Program-made: the position numbers and the translations under genes
IMG/VR virus record: IMGVR_UViG_3300010158_002994
Span: 1 to 39,391 of that record
Strand: one strand, 5' to 3'
From: a virus
Length of the DNA: 39,391 bases
The notes under the pieces: generated by a model
The model's input: the letters and a program-made list of their open reading frames with translations, nothing else
The model's database searches: none
Told to the model about the DNA's origin: nothing
In this document: positions 25,208 through 31,585 of the stretch, in pieces
How the letters are laid out: each line of letters opens with the position of its first letter
Numbering within the stretch: position 1 is the stretch's first letter

Positions 25208-25215
25208 TATTTATT
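25207..25215 (+). promoter_or_regulatory. Candidate phage promoter motif ATATTTATT (Fe-S cassette)
   Basis: Begins at the polymerase stop codon and ends 16 nt before the ATG of the IscU-like gene, so the Fe-S genes may have their own promoter. Confidence 0.55.
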
Positions 25216-25231
25216 TATATAAAAACACAAT

Positions 25232-25642
25232 ATGGCATACTCAGATAAGGTAATAGACCACTACGAAAACCCAAAGAACGTAGGCACTTTAGACAAGTCG
25301 AAAAAGAACGTGGGTACAGGATTGGTTGGAGCACCAGAGTGTGGTGACGTTATGAGACTTCAGATAGAAGTTATCGACGACATTATTGTTGACGCTAAAT
25401 TTAAAACATTTGGTTGCGGTTCTGCTATCGCTTCCTCTTCTGTAGCTACAGAGTGGTTGAAGGGCAAGACATTAGACGAAGCAGTAACGATAGACAACAT
25501 GGATTTGGTAGAAGAGCTAAACCTTCCGCCTGTTAAAATTCACTGTTCAGTATTAGCTGAAGACGCTATCAAATCTGCGATAAACGATTATAGACAAAAA
25601 CAAGGGCTAGAACAACTAGTCTTTGAAGAATCACACATATAA
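25232..25642 (+). CDS. iscU: Iron-sulfur cluster scaffold protein (IscU-like)
   Basis: A 136-aa protein that is a complete IscU: 'YSDKVIDHYENPKNVGTL' at the N-terminus, scaffold Cys C37 in 'GAPECGDVM', C62 in 'FGCGSAIASSS', and C105 in 'LPPVKIHCSVLAEDAI'. D39, the residue that tunes cluster release in bacterial IscU, is present, and the LPPVK motif recognised by the HscA chaperone is intact at 98-102. It builds [2Fe-2S] or [4Fe-4S] clusters on delivery of sulfur and iron. It starts a compact three-gene set with a ferredoxin and IscA. No cysteine desulfurase (IscS) is in the window, so sulfur would come from the host enzyme. Confidence 0.93.
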   Translation: MAYSDKVIDHYENPKNVGTLDKSKKNVGTGLVGAPECGDVMRLQIEVIDDIIVDAKFKTFGCGSAIASSSVATEWLKGKTLDEAVTIDNMDLVEELNLPPVKIHCSVLAEDAIKSAINDYRQKQGLEQLVFEESHI

Positions 25643-25652
25643 AAAATAGATT

Positions 25653-25961
25653 ATGAGTTTTATTATCGGAAAAGCATGCGTTGATTGTATGGATACAGCA
25701 TGCGCAAGTGCATGTCCAGTTGATTGTATACACGGACCAATAGACATCGAAGGATCTGGATCGGAAGTAGAAAAGCAGGGTAGAGAGGCATTCCCAGGAG
25801 GCCAACTCTACATTAATCCAGATACGTGCATCAATTGCGGGGCTTGCGTACCAGAATGTCCAGTTAGTGCTATTTACGAAGACGAAGATCTTGCCATAAA
25901 AGCAGGAGACGAAGAATCAGTTCATAAAAACTACGGATTCTTTGGATTAAAATATGCCTAA
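25653..25961 (+). CDS. Dicluster (4Fe-4S/7Fe-type) ferredoxin
   Basis: A 102-aa protein with two Cys motifs: 'CVDCMDTACASACPVDC' (C9, C12, C17, C21, with C25 after) and 'CINCGACVPECPVSAIY' (C59, C62, C65, C69). This matches Bacteroidota ferredoxins of the 7Fe/8Fe type that act as low-potential electron carriers. Its partner here is unknown; as part of the Fe-S set it may supply electrons for cluster assembly, the job of the ferredoxin in the Isc system, although that one is of the [2Fe-2S] type. Start ATG 25653 is 10 nt after the IscU stop; its stop overlaps the next start (TAATG). Confidence 0.9.
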   Translation: MSFIIGKACVDCMDTACASACPVDCIHGPIDIEGSGSEVEKQGREAFPGGQLYINPDTCINCGACVPECPVSAIYEDEDLAIKAGDEESVHKNYGFFGLKYA

Positions 25962-26284
25962 TGGTAACTGTATCAGAAACAGCTGCAAAGAAATTAAATT
26001 CGCTAATTGAGGAAAGCGGATTCAAAACTCCATTCGTTAGAGTGGCAGTTAAAGGAGGTGGATGTAGTGGATTGTCTTACGACCTTTCATTTGATACAGA
26101 ACAACAACCATCGGATACTTTAGCAGAAGATAAGGGCGTACAGATACTAATAGATATGAAATCTTTGCTATATCTGTATGGTACCGAACTGGATTTTTCT
26201 GATGGATTAAACGGCAAAGGGTTTCAGTTTATAAACCCAAATGCAAGTAGAACTTGTGGATGTGGTGAAAGTTTCGCACTTTAA
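25961..26284 (+). CDS. iscA: A-type Fe-S cluster carrier (IscA/SufA/HesB family)
   Basis: A 107-aa protein with the conserved cluster-binding Cys at C35 ('GGGCSGLSYDLSF'), C99 and C101 ('SRTCGCGESF'), identical in position to E. coli IscA. It would carry clusters from the IscU scaffold to targets such as [4Fe-4S] enzymes. The start overlaps the ferredoxin stop by one base (TAATG), a sign of translational coupling. It is the last gene of the Fe-S set, followed by the chaperone operon with its own promoter motif. Confidence 0.93.
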   Translation: MVTVSETAAKKLNSLIEESGFKTPFVRVAVKGGGCSGLSYDLSFDTEQQPSDTLAEDKGVQILIDMKSLLYLYGTELDFSDGLNGKGFQFINPNASRTCGCGESFAL

Positions 26285-26357: not shown

Positions 26358-26405
26358 ATGTTAAATTTAATAATTAACCCAAAACACACAGGAGGTGTAA
26401 AATGA
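26358..26405 (+). CDS. Possible 15-aa leader peptide coupled to hsp20
   Basis: ATG 26358 opens a 15-codon ORF (MLNLIINPKHTGGVK) that ends with TGA at 26403-26405, overlapping the hsp20 start codon as ATGA. The Shine-Dalgarno site of hsp20 lies inside it, so ribosomes finishing the peptide would be delivered to the hsp20 start. This could be a translational-coupling leader. A chance ORF is possible in such short AT-rich sequence. Confidence 0.35.
   Translation: MLNLIINPKHTGGVK
26390..26397 (+). promoter_or_regulatory. Strong Shine-Dalgarno site for hsp20
   Basis: AGGAGGTG with 6 nt between AGGAGG and the ATG at 26402. It is the only good Shine-Dalgarno I see directly before a start codon in this window, where other starts lack one, consistent with Bacteroidota-type translation. 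It implies unusually high or differently regulated translation of hsp20, or a transferred leader. Confidence 0.8.
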
Positions 26406-26842
26406 CACAATTAACCCATTGGGGCGTCGATCCCTTTGATCTTCTATGGAAGAATCTATTCGACCAAAATTCTAATTTCTCTACAATCGCAGAGAAAATC
26501 TCTTATCCACTAGACATTTACGAGAAACAAGATAGTATCGTATTCGAACTTGCAGCAGTAGGTTTGGATTACGAAGATATCGATATCGAAGTGCAAGGTG
26601 ATGTTCTTCGCATCAAGTACGCAAAAGCAAAAGAAGACGAACCTATAACAAATTTTATCCACAAAGGAATAGCACGAAGATCTTTTGATTTGGCTTGGAA
26701 AATTGCTTCCAAGTTCGATCTAACTTCTTTGGAAGCCACCATAGATAAAGGACTATTAAAAATAGAAATTCCATTATCCGATGAAAGTTTACCAAAGAAA
26801 ATTCAAATCAAACCAAGGACGTTATTTCAAGTTAACGCCTAA
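26402..26842 (+). CDS. Small heat shock protein (Hsp20/alpha-crystallin)
   Basis: A 146-aa protein with the alpha-crystallin domain at about residues 35-135: 'YPLDIYEKQDSIVFELAAVG' (in-frame start), 'YEDIDIEVQGDVLRIKYAKA', 'RRSFDLAWKI', and 'ATIDKGLLKIEIPLSD', the ...GxLxIxIP pattern typical of this family. It is an ATP-independent chaperone holding unfolded proteins for GroEL. Hsp20 genes occur in some T4-type cyanophages. It opens the chaperone operon, with a strong Shine-Dalgarno and a possible leader peptide that set it apart from its neighbours. An inverted-repeat pair flanks it. Confidence 0.9.
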   Translation: MTQLTHWGVDPFDLLWKNLFDQNSNFSTIAEKISYPLDIYEKQDSIVFELAAVGLDYEDIDIEVQGDVLRIKYAKAKEDEPITNFIHKGIARRSFDLAWKIASKFDLTSLEATIDKGLLKIEIPLSDESLPKKIQIKPRTLFQVNA

Positions 26843-26853
26843 ATAAAATAAAG

Positions 26854-26862
26854 AGGCCTACC
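26854..26862 (+). repeat. Right arm of a 9-bp inverted repeat flanking hsp20
   Basis: AGGCCTACC, 11 nt after the hsp20 stop codon, is the reverse complement of the arm at 26339-26347 and is followed by CTTAGTTATG, the start of the next gene. Confidence 0.4.
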
Positions 26863-26872
26863 GCCCTTAGTT

Positions 26873-27073
26873 ATGTTTAGCATCTGTAAAAATTACATCA
26901 AAGTCAACGACTCGCTTTTCCAAGTGGTAAAGCAAATGCCTGAGGACCGGATCGATAATCCTGAAACTGAGGTAGAAACTATTAAAAAATGGTTAGGTGC
27001 TGACACCGCATTTAAAAAAGATGGAATGTTATATTTTTGTATTAAAATTGAAGACCTAGAAATAATAAATTAA
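26873..27073 (+). CDS. 66-aa unknown protein in the chaperone operon
   Basis: A 66-aa protein starting in AGTTATG between hsp20 and groES. The sequence ('SICKNYIKVNDSLFQVVKQM', then 'VETIKKWLGADTAFKKDG', 'MLYFCIKIEDLEIIN') has alternating beta and helix character and is acidic overall. I recognise no family. Because it is embedded in a groESL operon with only 3 nt before groES, it may be a co-chaperone, adaptor or regulator; this is inference from position only. Confidence 0.6.
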   Translation: MFSICKNYIKVNDSLFQVVKQMPEDRIDNPETEVETIKKWLGADTAFKKDGMLYFCIKIEDLEIIN

Positions 27074-27076
27074 AAA

Positions 27077-27370
27077 ATGAGTAAAATTAAACCACTCAAC
27101 GGTTTTATCGTATTGAAACCAGTTGAAGAACAAGAACAGACCTACGGAAACATTGTAATTCCAGACTTAGGTAAAGAGCGTCCTGAAATGGGCGAAGTAG
27201 TAGCAGTTAGCGAAACTTACAATTGGCACACAGATTCAAACATTAAATCAACACTTAATGTTGGAGACAAAGTTCTAATTCCAAAAATGGGATCAATGAA
27301 GATCACAATGGAAGGAGAAGATTATTTCATCGCAAAAGATACTGAAATCTTAGCAGTTATAACAGAATAA
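27077..27370 (+). CDS. groES: Co-chaperonin GroES
   Basis: A 97-aa protein of normal GroES length. It begins 'KIKPLNGFIVLKPVEEQEQT', has the mobile-loop region 'TYGNIVIPDLGKERPEMGEVVAVSE' (only partly quoted as 'GNIVIPD' and 'GEVVAVSE') and ends 'DYFIAKDTEILAVITE'. The mobile loop usually carries a Gly-Gly-Ile-Val/Leu core; here it is Gly-Asn-Ile-Val-Ile. It forms the heptameric lid for the GroEL chamber. It lies 1 nt from groEL. T4 carries only a GroES replacement (gp31) and uses host GroEL, so a phage with both is less usual. Confidence 0.93.
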   Translation: MSKIKPLNGFIVLKPVEEQEQTYGNIVIPDLGKERPEMGEVVAVSETYNWHTDSNIKSTLNVGDKVLIPKMGSMKITMEGEDYFIAKDTEILAVITE

Positions 27371-27371
27371 T

Positions 27372-28997
27372 ATGAGTACAACAAAAAACATAAACGGAAC
27401 AGAACTTAAAGAGAAGTTACTTTCCGGTATAGAAAAACTAAACCAAGCGGTGTCATCAACATTGGGACCCGGCGGTAGAACTGTTTTGATTAGAGAACAA
27501 AACGGGGAAGTTAAAGTAACTAAAGACGGCGTAACTGTCGCAAAAGCTTTTCATAAGCTAGAAGACGACATCGAAGATTTAGGAGCTCAGTTAGTAAAGC
27601 AAGTTAGTATTAAGTCGGCTATCGAAGCTGGTGACGGTACAACTACTTCCACTTTATTGGCAACAGAAATGGTAAGAGAAGGTTTAAAAGAAATTCGTCA
27701 AGGTTCTAACGCAGTAGAGATTAAAAATGCAATCGATAAAACAGTTAAACAGGTTATCGAATATATTAAGACAATCGCTATTGATATCGAATCAGAAGAA
27801 CAAATTAAACAAGTCGCTACAATTTCAGGCAACAACGATCCAGAAATTGGTAACTTGATTGCTTCTGCAGTAGAGAAAGTTGGTCGCGAAGGAGTTATTA
27901 CAATCGAAGAATCTAAATCAGGTGAAACCAGTTTAGAGGTTGTTGAAGGTATGCAATTCGATCGCGGATACAAATCTCCTTACTTCGTAACTAACAATAC
28001 GAGTATGCAAGCTGTATTGGAAGATCCTTACATCTTCTTATTTGATGGTAGAATTTCAACAGCCCAAGAGTTATTGCAAGTATTAGCGAAAGTAAATTCT
28101 GAGAATAAACCGTTGTTAATTGTTGCAGAAGATATCGGAGACGAAGCATTAGCTACTTTGATTGTAAATAAAATGAGAGGCATCGTTCAAGTTTGCGCAG
28201 TTAAAGCACCAGATTTTGGCGAAAGAAAAACTTTGATCTTAGAAGATATTGCGATCTTAACAGGCGCAGAATTGCTATCTAAAGACAAAGGTCACAAATT
28301 AGATAAATTAACTACTCAACAAGTTTCTCAAGTATTGGGTAAAGCTAGATTAGTAACAGTATCTAAAGATGAAACCACCATTATTGACGGTAAAGGCGAA
28401 GAAGTTAAGTTACAAGCAAGAGCGGAAGAGATTAAAGATCAAATAGATAAATCTACTTCATTCTACGAGAAAGAGAAATTACAAGAGAGATTAGGTAAAC
28501 TAGTCGGAGGTGTTGCAATCATTAGCGTAGGCGGTAATTCTGATATTGAAATTAAAGAAAAGAAAGATAGAGTAGAAGACGCTTTATATGCAACTAAAGC
28601 AGCGTTAGCTGATGGTATAGTAGCAGGCGGAGGTTCAGCTTTATTCCAAGCGTCTATTCAACATCATCCAGAAGAGACTATCCACGATGCTATTGCTTAT
28701 GGAATTGTTCAGAAAGCGATTCAAAGTCCATTCAAGAAGATCTTAGAAAATGCAGGAATTCAAGATTGGTACACTAAAATTCCTAACGAAGGTGAAGTGT
28801 ACGATGCCAAGAATCACAAGATTGTTAATGCTTTAGACGCAGGTATTATTGATCCAGCCAAAGTCGTTATCACAGCGCTTAGAAACGCAGCTTCTGTAGC
28901 AGGAACTATTCTAACCACAGAATCAGTTGTATTCGAAAAGAAAGACAAAGAAGAAAAAACTCAAGACCCAATGATGGGTATGGGTATGGGAATGTAA
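27372..28997 (+). CDS. groEL: Chaperonin GroEL
   Basis: A 541-aa protein, full length for GroEL. Nucleotide-binding motifs are intact: 'TLGPGGRTVLI' (31-36 for LGPGGR), 'KDGVTVAK' (51-58), 'GDGTTT' (87-92), and 'DGIVAGGGSAL' in the C-terminal equatorial domain. The apical domain is complete. The C-terminus ends in a GMGMGM-type tail like the GGM repeats of bacterial GroEL. It would fold phage and host proteins; the N-terminus 'MSTTKNINGTELKEKL' is shorter and different from typical bacterial 'AAKDVKFG' starts, so it is diverged from host GroEL. It acts with groES at 27077. Confidence 0.95.
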   Translation: MSTTKNINGTELKEKLLSGIEKLNQAVSSTLGPGGRTVLIREQNGEVKVTKDGVTVAKAFHKLEDDIEDLGAQLVKQVSIKSAIEAGDGTTTSTLLATEMVREGLKEIRQGSNAVEIKNAIDKTVKQVIEYIKTIAIDIESEEQIKQVATISGNNDPEIGNLIASAVEKVGREGVITIEESKSGETSLEVVEGMQFDRGYKSPYFVTNNTSMQAVLEDPYIFLFDGRISTAQELLQVLAKVNSENKPLLIVAEDIGDEALATLIVNKMRGIVQVCAVKAPDFGERKTLILEDIAILTGAELLSKDKGHKLDKLTTQQVSQVLGKARLVTVSKDETTIIDGKGEEVKLQARAEEIKDQIDKSTSFYEKEKLQERLGKLVGGVAIISVGGNSDIEIKEKKDRVEDALYATKAALADGIVAGGGSALFQASIQHHPEETIHDAIAYGIVQKAIQSPFKKILENAGIQDWYTKIPNEGEVYDAKNHKIVNALDAGIIDPAKVVITALRNAASVAGTILTTESVVFEKKDKEEKTQDPMMGMGMGM

Positions 28998-30673: not shown

Positions 30674-31585
30674 ATGCAATATGAAGTAACAGAAGATAGG
30701 TCCAACAAAGACATCCCAGCCGGGATGACAGTTGAACAAGCGAAACAATATTATTTAGACATGTACGGTACTGATTTTGTATCGAAAATGCCTAAAGTAG
30801 TTGTTGAGCCATTCGAAGATAAATTTATTATCAGATGCGATCTATCTTTAGCAGGATTCAAAGCATTTGCCGCAGAGAAGGTAATTGCTGAGTGTCCTAA
30901 AGATACTTTCGTTTACGTAGCTCCAAGAGTCGGTCACGCTCCAGAAGCAATCGCTAATTTAGCACAGCTGTACGGTAAGAAATCGGTGTTCTTTGCACCA
31001 GCTTCTAAAGAGGTATCAAAACACCAAGCAGTCGTAAAAGCGTATGGAGCTGACTTAAGATTCGTTAAAACTCCTGCGATGCCAACTATTAACATTTATG
31101 CAAAGAAGTGGGCAGAGAAGTACGGAGCGCAGTACCTAACTTTCGGATTATCAGGTATGCCAGGCGTAACAGCAGGAATTGTCAATTTTGCAAATAGTTT
31201 ACCTGAGCCACCAGAATTTTGGTGCGCAGTATCAACAGGCACTATGACTAGAGGTTTACAAATCGGTTGGCCAAACGCTGCAGCTTACGGTATTGCTGTT
31301 GCGAGAAATTTAAAGAAAGGTGAAATCGGTAGAGCAATTATAGAAAGCGCAACTATACCATTTTTAAAACCAGTAAGACCAGATCAATTACCTCCATTTC
31401 CTACCACGGCTACTTACGATGCAAAAGCGTTCGAAGCATTTAAAACAAAGGGAAAACCAGGTGCTTATTTTATAAACGTTGGTGCCGATGCTCAAATAGA
31501 AAAAAGAGTGGTGGATATCGATATGAAAGCCATTGATTCCCAAAGAGTTTGGGGAGATATGAGAGACTTAGAACGTGGATTTTAA
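30674..31585 (+). CDS. Fold-type II PLP-enzyme-like protein (uncertain)
   Basis: A 303-aa protein whose middle resembles fold-type II pyridoxal-phosphate enzymes (cysteine synthase, threonine synthase, ACC deaminase): 'LAGFKAFAAEKVIAE' with K63 where the PLP lysine would be, 'APRVGHAPEAIANLAQLYGKKSVFFAPA' (shown in parts), 'AVVKAYGADLRFV', and the downstream 'VSTGTMTRGLQIGWPNAAAYGIAVARNLKKGEIG' (shown in parts) like the Gly-rich phosphate-binding loop. If real, it would act on amino acids. The match is by pattern only, and the lysine is not proven. It starts in AGTTATG. Confidence 0.5.
   Translation: MQYEVTEDRSNKDIPAGMTVEQAKQYYLDMYGTDFVSKMPKVVVEPFEDKFIIRCDLSLAGFKAFAAEKVIAECPKDTFVYVAPRVGHAPEAIANLAQLYGKKSVFFAPASKEVSKHQAVVKAYGADLRFVKTPAMPTINIYAKKWAEKYGAQYLTFGLSGMPGVTAGIVNFANSLPEPPEFWCAVSTGTMTRGLQIGWPNAAAYGIAVARNLKKGEIGRAIIESATIPFLKPVRPDQLPPFPTTATYDAKAFEAFKTKGKPGAYFINVGADAQIEKRVVDIDMKAIDSQRVWGDMRDLERGF

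Follow-up and report, generated by a model that had tools for sequence, protein, structure and literature searches.

A 39,391-base virus fragment from IMG/VR (IMGVR_UViG_3300010158_002994; the whole analysed stretch is hereafter called the window) carries three adjacent genes, iscU-fdx-iscA, for an iron–sulfur (Fe-S) cluster scaffold, a two-cluster ferredoxin and an A-type carrier. The gene order is that of the iscS-iscU-iscA operon of Bacteroidota, except that iscS is missing and, here, a ferredoxin gene stands between the remaining two. We favor, with reasonable though far from firm confidence, a reading in which the cassette is a phage-owned part of the iron–sulfur cluster (ISC) pathway, predicted to draw on a host sulfur source and to provide clusters for proteins made during infection.

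Conserved features of the cassette proteins

The preliminary description of this DNA had read three compact, adjacent genes for IscU, a dicluster ferredoxin and an A-type carrier with intact key residues, and the analysis bears this out. Open reading frames (ORFs) for all three occupy the coordinates it had claimed (Table 1), and fdx ends on the very base at which iscA begins, stop and start codon together reading TAATG (25959–25963). The IscU ORF scores 214.8 bits against TIGR01999, above the NCBIfam IscU equivalog cut-off of 192.4, and its best match among solved structures is the NifU-like chain 1q48 (E 1.1e-59, residues 1–128), with ISCU chains next. Residues C37, D39, C62, L98–K102 (LPPVK), H104 and C105 are all present, providing the hallmarks expected of an IscU: three ligand cysteines, an aspartate after the first, a histidine before the third and the LPPVK motif. 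These residues are kept in 75 of 75 distinct phage sequences of at least 120 amino acids (aa).

The carrier scores 120.7 bits against the general A-type family TIGR00049 (cut-off 58.8), and its three cysteines C35, C99 and C101, a set that ends in CxC, are intact as claimed and kept in all 82 distinct phage sequences of at least 100 aa. The equivalog cut-offs are reached neither for IscA (TIGR02011, 100.1 versus 150.6 bits) nor for ErpA (108.8 versus 117) or SufA (93.9 versus 136.2), so the name IscA is given by synteny alone. The ferredoxin likewise scores below the FdxA cut-offs, with 69.3 versus 125 bits for NF045480 (FdxA_Actino), its best NCBIfam model, 57.3 versus 135 for NF045490 and 47.5 versus 65 for NF058577. 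As a name, dicluster ferredoxin is right, any subfamily label being provisional, and IscA is retained here as a positional label.

Nine cysteines are found in the window ferredoxin, at positions 9, 12, 17, 21, 25, 59, 62, 65 and 69. Eight of the nine are invariant across 63 distinct phage sequences of at least 95 aa; C12 alone varies, being present in 44, as it is in the window, and absent from 19. Because the sole varying cysteine would presumably be a ligand in an 8Fe ferredoxin, the protein is possibly of the [3Fe-4S][4Fe-4S] type.

The cassette lies in a phage genome

The window comes from a real virus genome: genes for sheath, tube, baseplate, gp32-like and UvsX-like proteins are found in it or in its 53.7-kb twin (record G001, locus L004), which stems from another metagenome and in which 47 ORFs match those of the window at 95.9–100% identity and the cassette at 100%. 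Because tail tube and baseplate genes lie in the window and a whole tail sheath gene in the twin, the virus is a contractile-tailed phage. Its host is probably a member of the Bacteroidota, since the phage genes are akin to Bacteroidota ones.

The place of the cassette is conserved in close relatives. In loci L005 and L006 the space between the polymerase and Hsp20 genes is likewise occupied by iscU and iscA, and so it is in L007 at its contig start. In none of these three loci was a match to fdx found, and L006 has a carrier of another type (52% identical) beside a polymerase that is 93% identical; the cassette is therefore modular.

Chimeric assembly or bacterial contamination could place such genes in a viral record, and contaminated records of this kind apparently exist, as in a contig labelled Acinetobacter phage MD-2021a with the genes iscR-iscS-iscU-iscA-hscB-hscA-fdx. 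For the window we hold an origin of this kind to be vanishingly improbable and treat it as ruled out: the same block recurs in the second record together with a tail sheath gene, L005–L007 hold the genes in the same place, and phage sequences stand apart from bacterial ones in the trees described below, save two IscU sequences. The preliminary description had named, as the sign of a chimera, a tight grouping of the three genes with a single host genome beyond a contig junction; no such grouping is seen, and the claim that the genes are phage-borne stands. The MD-2021a contig itself (L002, CAKLQH020000011) holds mfd, ppiD and alkB1 along with the full isc operon and looks like bacterial chromosome.

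Distribution and arrangement among viruses

A scan of IMG/VR gave at least 599 pattern matches, at least 586 of which encode a relative of IscU, and the best 80 loci were studied; separate viral scans gave 101 relatives of the ferredoxin and 142 of the carrier. The IscU-bearing viral unit is widespread. Under arrangement classes whose limits were set after the neighborhood results for the 80 loci had been seen, iscU-iscA or iscU-fdx-iscA is adjacent in 65 loci: the three-gene form in 23, iscU-iscA with no fdx in the locus in 39, and iscU-iscA with fdx elsewhere in 3. All three genes are dispersed in 8 further loci, iscU and fdx occur with no iscA seen in 4 (2 of which have fewer than 800 bases to the right), and iscU stands alone in 3, each with fewer than 800 bases to the right. 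Within this unit, then, iscU and iscA are the usual pair and the ferredoxin is optional.

Among 50,697 named phage records, 16 match IscU, several of these being bacterial-looking or unannotated pieces; the clear named phage with IscU is C48C1, in which IscU is alone. None of the 50,697 matches the IscU, ferredoxin and carrier queries together. The earlier statement that no phage was known with the three-gene set thus holds for named phages. Among uncultivated viral contigs, however, the set is frequent, and what had seemed a rarity represents one version of an iscU-(fdx)-iscA unit that is widespread.

A bacterial operon without its desulfurase

The absence of a cysteine desulfurase, noted in the preliminary description, extends well beyond the window. 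IscS was matched by query in none of the 80 viral loci and by model in none of 39 of these viral records that were searched whole (chosen mostly for length, many of them fragments, and including the twin, in which the window's ORFs recur); every one of 14 control genomes, by contrast, was matched by this model. Bacterial loci, of which the best 80 are all Bacteroidota by title and have IscU 80–90% identical, show the order iscS-iscU-iscA, with IscS matched by the same query in 77 and iscA in 79, and two of the three loci without IscS have iscU no more than 400 bases from the locus start. Given iscS in 77 of 80 bacterial and 0 of 80 viral loci, the phage unit is the bacterial operon minus iscS plus an optional ferredoxin. 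Acinetobacter queries for HscA, HscB, the [2Fe-2S] ferredoxin and IscR matched none of the 80 viral loci (flanks up to 8 kb) and also none of the 80 bacterial loci (flanks up to 5 kb).

On the evidence of two trees, from which identical and short sequences were dropped, phage IscU and carrier are gene lineages apart from the nearest bacterial ones. In the IscU tree, whose few columns and unsettled bootstrap limit its resolution, 73 of 75 distinct phage sequences fall outside the bacterial clade (97/97); L315 and L316 lie inside it, L316 on a long branch. A single origin of phage IscU is allowed by this tree. The carrier tree, made by a quick method and containing long branches that meet, splits 82 phage from 77 bacterial sequences by one change (Shimodaira–Hasegawa-like approximate likelihood ratio test, SH-aLRT, 90), with the phage sequences in two groups. 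Relative to bacterial IscU, phage IscU is without two residues after position 49, and the window carrier is 56–67% identical to bacterial carriers. Recent pick-up from one host was also considered and is not supported, given the 73 of 75 phage IscU sequences outside the bacterial clade.

All three phage genes are under purifying selection. Median ratios of nonsynonymous to synonymous substitution (dN/dS) are 0.068 for iscU (1539 pairs), 0.090 for fdx (681) and 0.081 for iscA (1882), taken over pairs of equal length with 2–25% DNA difference and dS below 2. Between the window and L005, iscU has a dN of 0 and a dS of 0.19.

Because IscS is missing, the phage unit would have to plug into host IscS, and the phage probably depends on its host for sulfur. 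A mechanism that joins host IscS to a phage scaffold, reductant and carrier is a prediction from family knowledge, and a well-founded one. Phage IscU would dock on host IscS and receive its persulfide sulfur. Electrons for cluster building or for Fe-S enzymes would come from the phage ferredoxin, which a host 2-oxoacid:ferredoxin oxidoreductase may reduce, and the carrier would hand the finished clusters to apo-proteins that are synthesized in the infected cell. The probable recipients would be phage Fe-S proteins, namely the ferredoxin itself, a four-cysteine nuclease resembling Cas4 and AddB that is found in a close relative, and the radical S-adenosylmethionine (radical SAM) enzymes of many other carriers of the unit. 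Assembly would be kept running on the phage's own transcripts after host takeover.

The contact with IscS could also serve to divert sulfur, with phage IscU competing for the IscS surface and drawing sulfur from acceptors such as tRNA thiolation while cluster building is secondary. In its favor, IscU and TusA are reported to occupy competing sites on IscS (PMC11302665), and phage IscU is close to bacterial IscU (80–90% in the best 80 bacterial loci). The full ligand set, the co-conserved carrier and the low dN/dS of all three genes nevertheless suit a working scaffold, and a decoy would need no carrier, so that we regard diversion as quite improbable.

Origin and role of the ferredoxin

The flanks of the 80 bacterial loci hold no match to the phage ferredoxin, and in 21 of 21 searched genomes with a near IscU there is no full-length relative of it, only cluster motifs of 21–28 residues. 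Some ferredoxin match is given by 280 of 296 Bacteroidota genomes. The best of those listed (88%) is part of an iscU-fdx-iscA set of its own, on a contig of 3.6 kb; among the matches listed, two more reach 53–54% over residues 2–100, and the others are weaker, partial or motif-only. The contig with the best match (L462, 3,584 bases, in a Bacteroidota genome) reads folE-like, iscU, fdx, iscA and glycosyltransferase-like, the outer two named by eye; it is probably of phage origin and was placed in a bacterial genome by binning. On plasmids, the best ferredoxin matches are mostly fdxA genes at 40–43% (best 10 of 210 records).

One 53% relative in a Bacteroidota genome adjoins ORFs of 619 and 342 aa that look by eye like korA/korB, the pair of subunit genes for a 2-oxoacid:ferredoxin oxidoreductase; this neighborhood is the reason for proposing that enzyme as electron source. 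A far-reaching version of the scheme, which we consider rather improbable, would make the cassette a rewired Fe-S factory, with sulfur from host IscS, electrons from the host oxidoreductase through a phage ferredoxin of a kind absent beside the bacterial operon, and a phage scaffold and carrier that serve phage enzymes. Such an arrangement would couple central carbon metabolism to cofactor supply and could be swapped between phage lineages.

The ferredoxin may instead stand outside cluster assembly, as an independent electron donor or as a client, with iscU-iscA the unit proper. This possibility, which we judge nearly as good as its opposite, is compatible with the favored explanation for iscU and iscA. 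It draws on the 39 loci with iscU-iscA and no fdx, the 3 with fdx elsewhere and the 8 with dispersed genes, against 23 with iscU-fdx-iscA, on the close relatives L005–L007 with no fdx match, and on L002, whose full isc operon ends in a ferredoxin gene that is unmatched in the viral loci. Against it, fdx next to iscU is usually placed exactly between iscU and iscA, and in the window it shares a base with iscA.

Candidate Fe-S clients

Radical SAM enzymes were searched for in the 39 records (E up to 0.001). Matches occur in 22, with 21 over the curated cut-off and up to 8 per record, giving 68 matches in 3.50 Mb, or 19.4 per Mb. The controls were the 14 records of at least 30 kb out of 80 loci from a tail-sheath scan; IscU is found in 1 of them and radical SAM in 3 (1 over cut-off), the IscU-bearing one included. 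In the 13 IscU-negative controls, radical SAM occurs in 2, with 2 matches in 0.70 Mb, or 2.8 per Mb. With relatedness ignored, the difference between 22 of 39 and 2 of 13 gives a Fisher p of 0.012, and the size-matched comparison (30–112 kb; 14 of 28 versus 2 of 13) a p of 0.045.

A second candidate comes from record G002, whose polymerase is 94% identical to that of the window: a PD-(D/E)XK nuclease (PF12705) with C27, C285, C288 and C297, a 50% relative of which is found in G017. These cysteines follow the C...CxxCx8C spacing that marks Fe-S nucleases, Cas4 and AddB among them. Overall, an Fe-S client for the window phage appears likely from these gene contents.

Several points weigh against the favored reading. 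Neither the window nor its closest records G001–G003 has a radical SAM match, so that the case for a client leans on carriers further removed, and the region of G002 with the four-cysteine nuclease lies beyond the reach of the window virus's own records. The control is small, its hosts and kinds of phage may not be the same, and 2 of its 4 radical SAM matches belong to the single IscU-bearing record in it. Nor are the IscU-bearing records independent of one another (G006, G008 and G012 look like near-copies, as do G035–G037), and the 39 of 80 were hand-picked, mostly the longer ones. Records G006, G008, G012 and G021, with 7–8 radical SAM matches, are without fdx around iscU, and ferredoxin and radical SAM therefore do not go together. 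Phage hallmarks are also found in few of the 39: the PF03237 terminase, of little use as a phage marker, in 3 (the window not among them) and the tail sheath phrog_23 in 9 (the window included).

The 7–8 radical SAM matches in each of G006, G008, G012 and G021, several of them clustered, amount to an unusual load of radical chemistry, with cysteine motifs seen in G012 and G021. The phage nature of G012 and of G010 rests on the IMG/VR call and gene density. For these two, 107 ORFs of 230–700 aa within one 20-kb piece were listed, and 70 of them, with five radical SAM-motif ORFs of G012 among those set aside, were compared with PHROGs. The matches were to replication and nucleotide genes of phage type, with no structural gene among 25 of 50 families listed.

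A host-directed role would have the unit maintain host Fe-S enzymes of respiration, central metabolism or stress repair, phage clients being incidental. The lack of a radical SAM match in the window and its closest records is in keeping with this, as is the Hsp20-GroES-GroEL block directly downstream, which fits a theme of protein maintenance or stress, and a stress reading has been given for virome Fe-S genes in the passage concerned (PMC8940887). Yet radical SAM is commoner in IscU-bearing records than in controls, and the nearest bacteria already own iscS-iscU-iscA; we think this role unlikely, if well short of negligible. Of the preliminary interpretation, what survives is that the genes are phage-borne, intact and unaccompanied by a desulfurase, so that the phage probably relies on its host for sulfur.

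An upstream motif shared with structural genes

The sequence TATTTAT has 10 intergenic plus-strand copies, compared with a mean of 1.2 and a largest value of 6 in 1000 single-base shuffles of the intergenic DNA. It stands 18–33 nucleotides (nt) before iscU (25232) and five other starts (1328, 1915, 2980, 14185 and 19078), and at 11, 11 and 48 nt before three further starts. Counted over the window from end to end, TATTTAT shows no excess (21 versus 18.8 expected), but the longer motif ATATTTATN{0,3}ATA does (4 versus 0.39). We regard TATTTAT as a candidate phage promoter element, and its sharing would fit a predicted joint control of the cassette with structural genes. A promoter-like motif ahead of iscU had been described, and the pattern is indeed present, but its nature as a late promoter was not borne out. 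The same applies to the proposed roles late in infection and in countering stress, for whose timing the shared upstream motif is the only indication.

Genomic context

The cassette sits between the polymerase and Hsp20 genes (Table 1). Other window genes match baseplate wedge, gp32-like, UvsX-like and DnaB proteins, and the ribonucleotide reductase is nearest the adenosylcobalamin type (TIGR02505, 275 bits, under the cut-off of 340). The chaperone block precedes iscU instead in L029, L034 and L059.

Table 1. Positions of the cassette and of other window features discussed in the text.
Feature	Position	Strand	Remarks
Tail sheath gene, end only	left window edge		phrog_23 match; full copy in G001
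Tail tube	start 1328		TATTTAT upstream
Baseplate hub	start 1915		TATTTAT upstream
922-aa ORF	start 2980		tape measure by size and place only; TATTTAT upstream
DNA polymerase	ends 25207		left neighbour of iscU-fdx-iscA
AT-rich promoter-like motif TATTTATTTAT	25208..25218	+	20–24 nt before iscU
iscU, Fe-S cluster scaffold, 136 aa	25232..25642	+	TIGR01999, PF01592, phrog_8429 NifU-like
fdx, FdxA-like two-cluster ferredoxin, 102 aa	25653..25961	+	Fer4 Pfam models
iscA-like A-type carrier, 107 aa	25961..26284	+	TIGR00049, PF01521
Chaperone block: Hsp20 (start 26402), 66-aa ORF, GroES, GroEL	26402–28997		directly after cassette

Two further window genes were noted. A four-cysteine DUF5522 protein (PF17653, 21234–21434) begins before the ribonucleotide reductase gene has ended; this reductase and DUF5522 pair recurs in 4 of 4 viral loci with a matched reductase (80 loci), a DUF5522-like ORF is found in G017, and the protein is possibly a reductase partner or a metal protein. 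The protein at 30674–31585 matches phrog_7093 (threonine dehydratase) and looks by eye like a fold-type II pyridoxal 5′-phosphate enzyme; L005–L007 have a 39% version of it in the same place.

Comparison with known systems

Phages with Fe-S assembly genes have been described before. A 2017 report on marine viral genomes, several of them T4-like, described IscU, A-type carriers and radical SAM genes together (Nishimura et al., PMC5332604). As far as that report's relevant passages go, the viruses share with the present ones IscU and/or an A-type carrier alongside radical SAM and Cas4, with the same proposed role, and the novelty that the preliminary description had seen in a phage Fe-S set is reduced to that extent. 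The window differs in that its nearest bacteria are Bacteroidota and its unit is iscU-fdx-iscA. HMO-2011-type marine phages carry iscU and erpA, likewise a scaffold and an A-type carrier; they belong to another phage group, and the passage describing them has no ferredoxin cassette (PMC9038755). Viruses of green sulfur bacteria have an Fe-S assembly gene, iscA, as one ORF, with no iscU-fdx-iscA unit in the passage that describes it (PMC8226683). A Lake Baikal Nitrospirota virus combines an Fe-S biosynthesis protein with ferredoxin oxidoreductase and ferredoxin-dependent genes but differs in host, gene set and arrangement, and IscU/IscA do not appear in its main text (PMC7678222). Eastern tropical North Pacific (ETNP) viromes contain nifU, sufE and ferredoxin domains, in the portion relevant here (PMC8940887).

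Phage C48C1 (OQ984149, Kyanoviridae), with a complete 156-kb genome, has an IscU 72% identical to that of the window; unlike the window, it shows no ferredoxin or carrier by name among 29 features within 8 kb, and the carrier and ferredoxin queries are unmatched at E 1e-5. The Bacteroidota operon (Chitinophagaceae, Sphingobacteriaceae, Hymenobacteraceae and others) shares the iscU-iscA order, up to 90% identity in IscU and the key residues. The phage unit differs from it by the missing iscS, an IscU two residues shorter after position 49, a carrier at 56–67% identity and the added fdx.

The cassette shows that phages maintain, as gene lineages in their own right, steps of cofactor assembly as well as cofactor-using enzymes. 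Should the units supply phage enzymes, they could predict which phages rely on Fe-S chemistry, such as radical SAM modification or Fe-S nucleases, and explain how these enzymes mature after host takeover. A Bacteroidota-type unit and a ferredoxin-containing cassette were not found in print in the passages of open-licence papers that were searched. The concept of phage Fe-S assembly genes is thus already known, and the Bacteroidota type with its optional two-cluster ferredoxin appears to be new.
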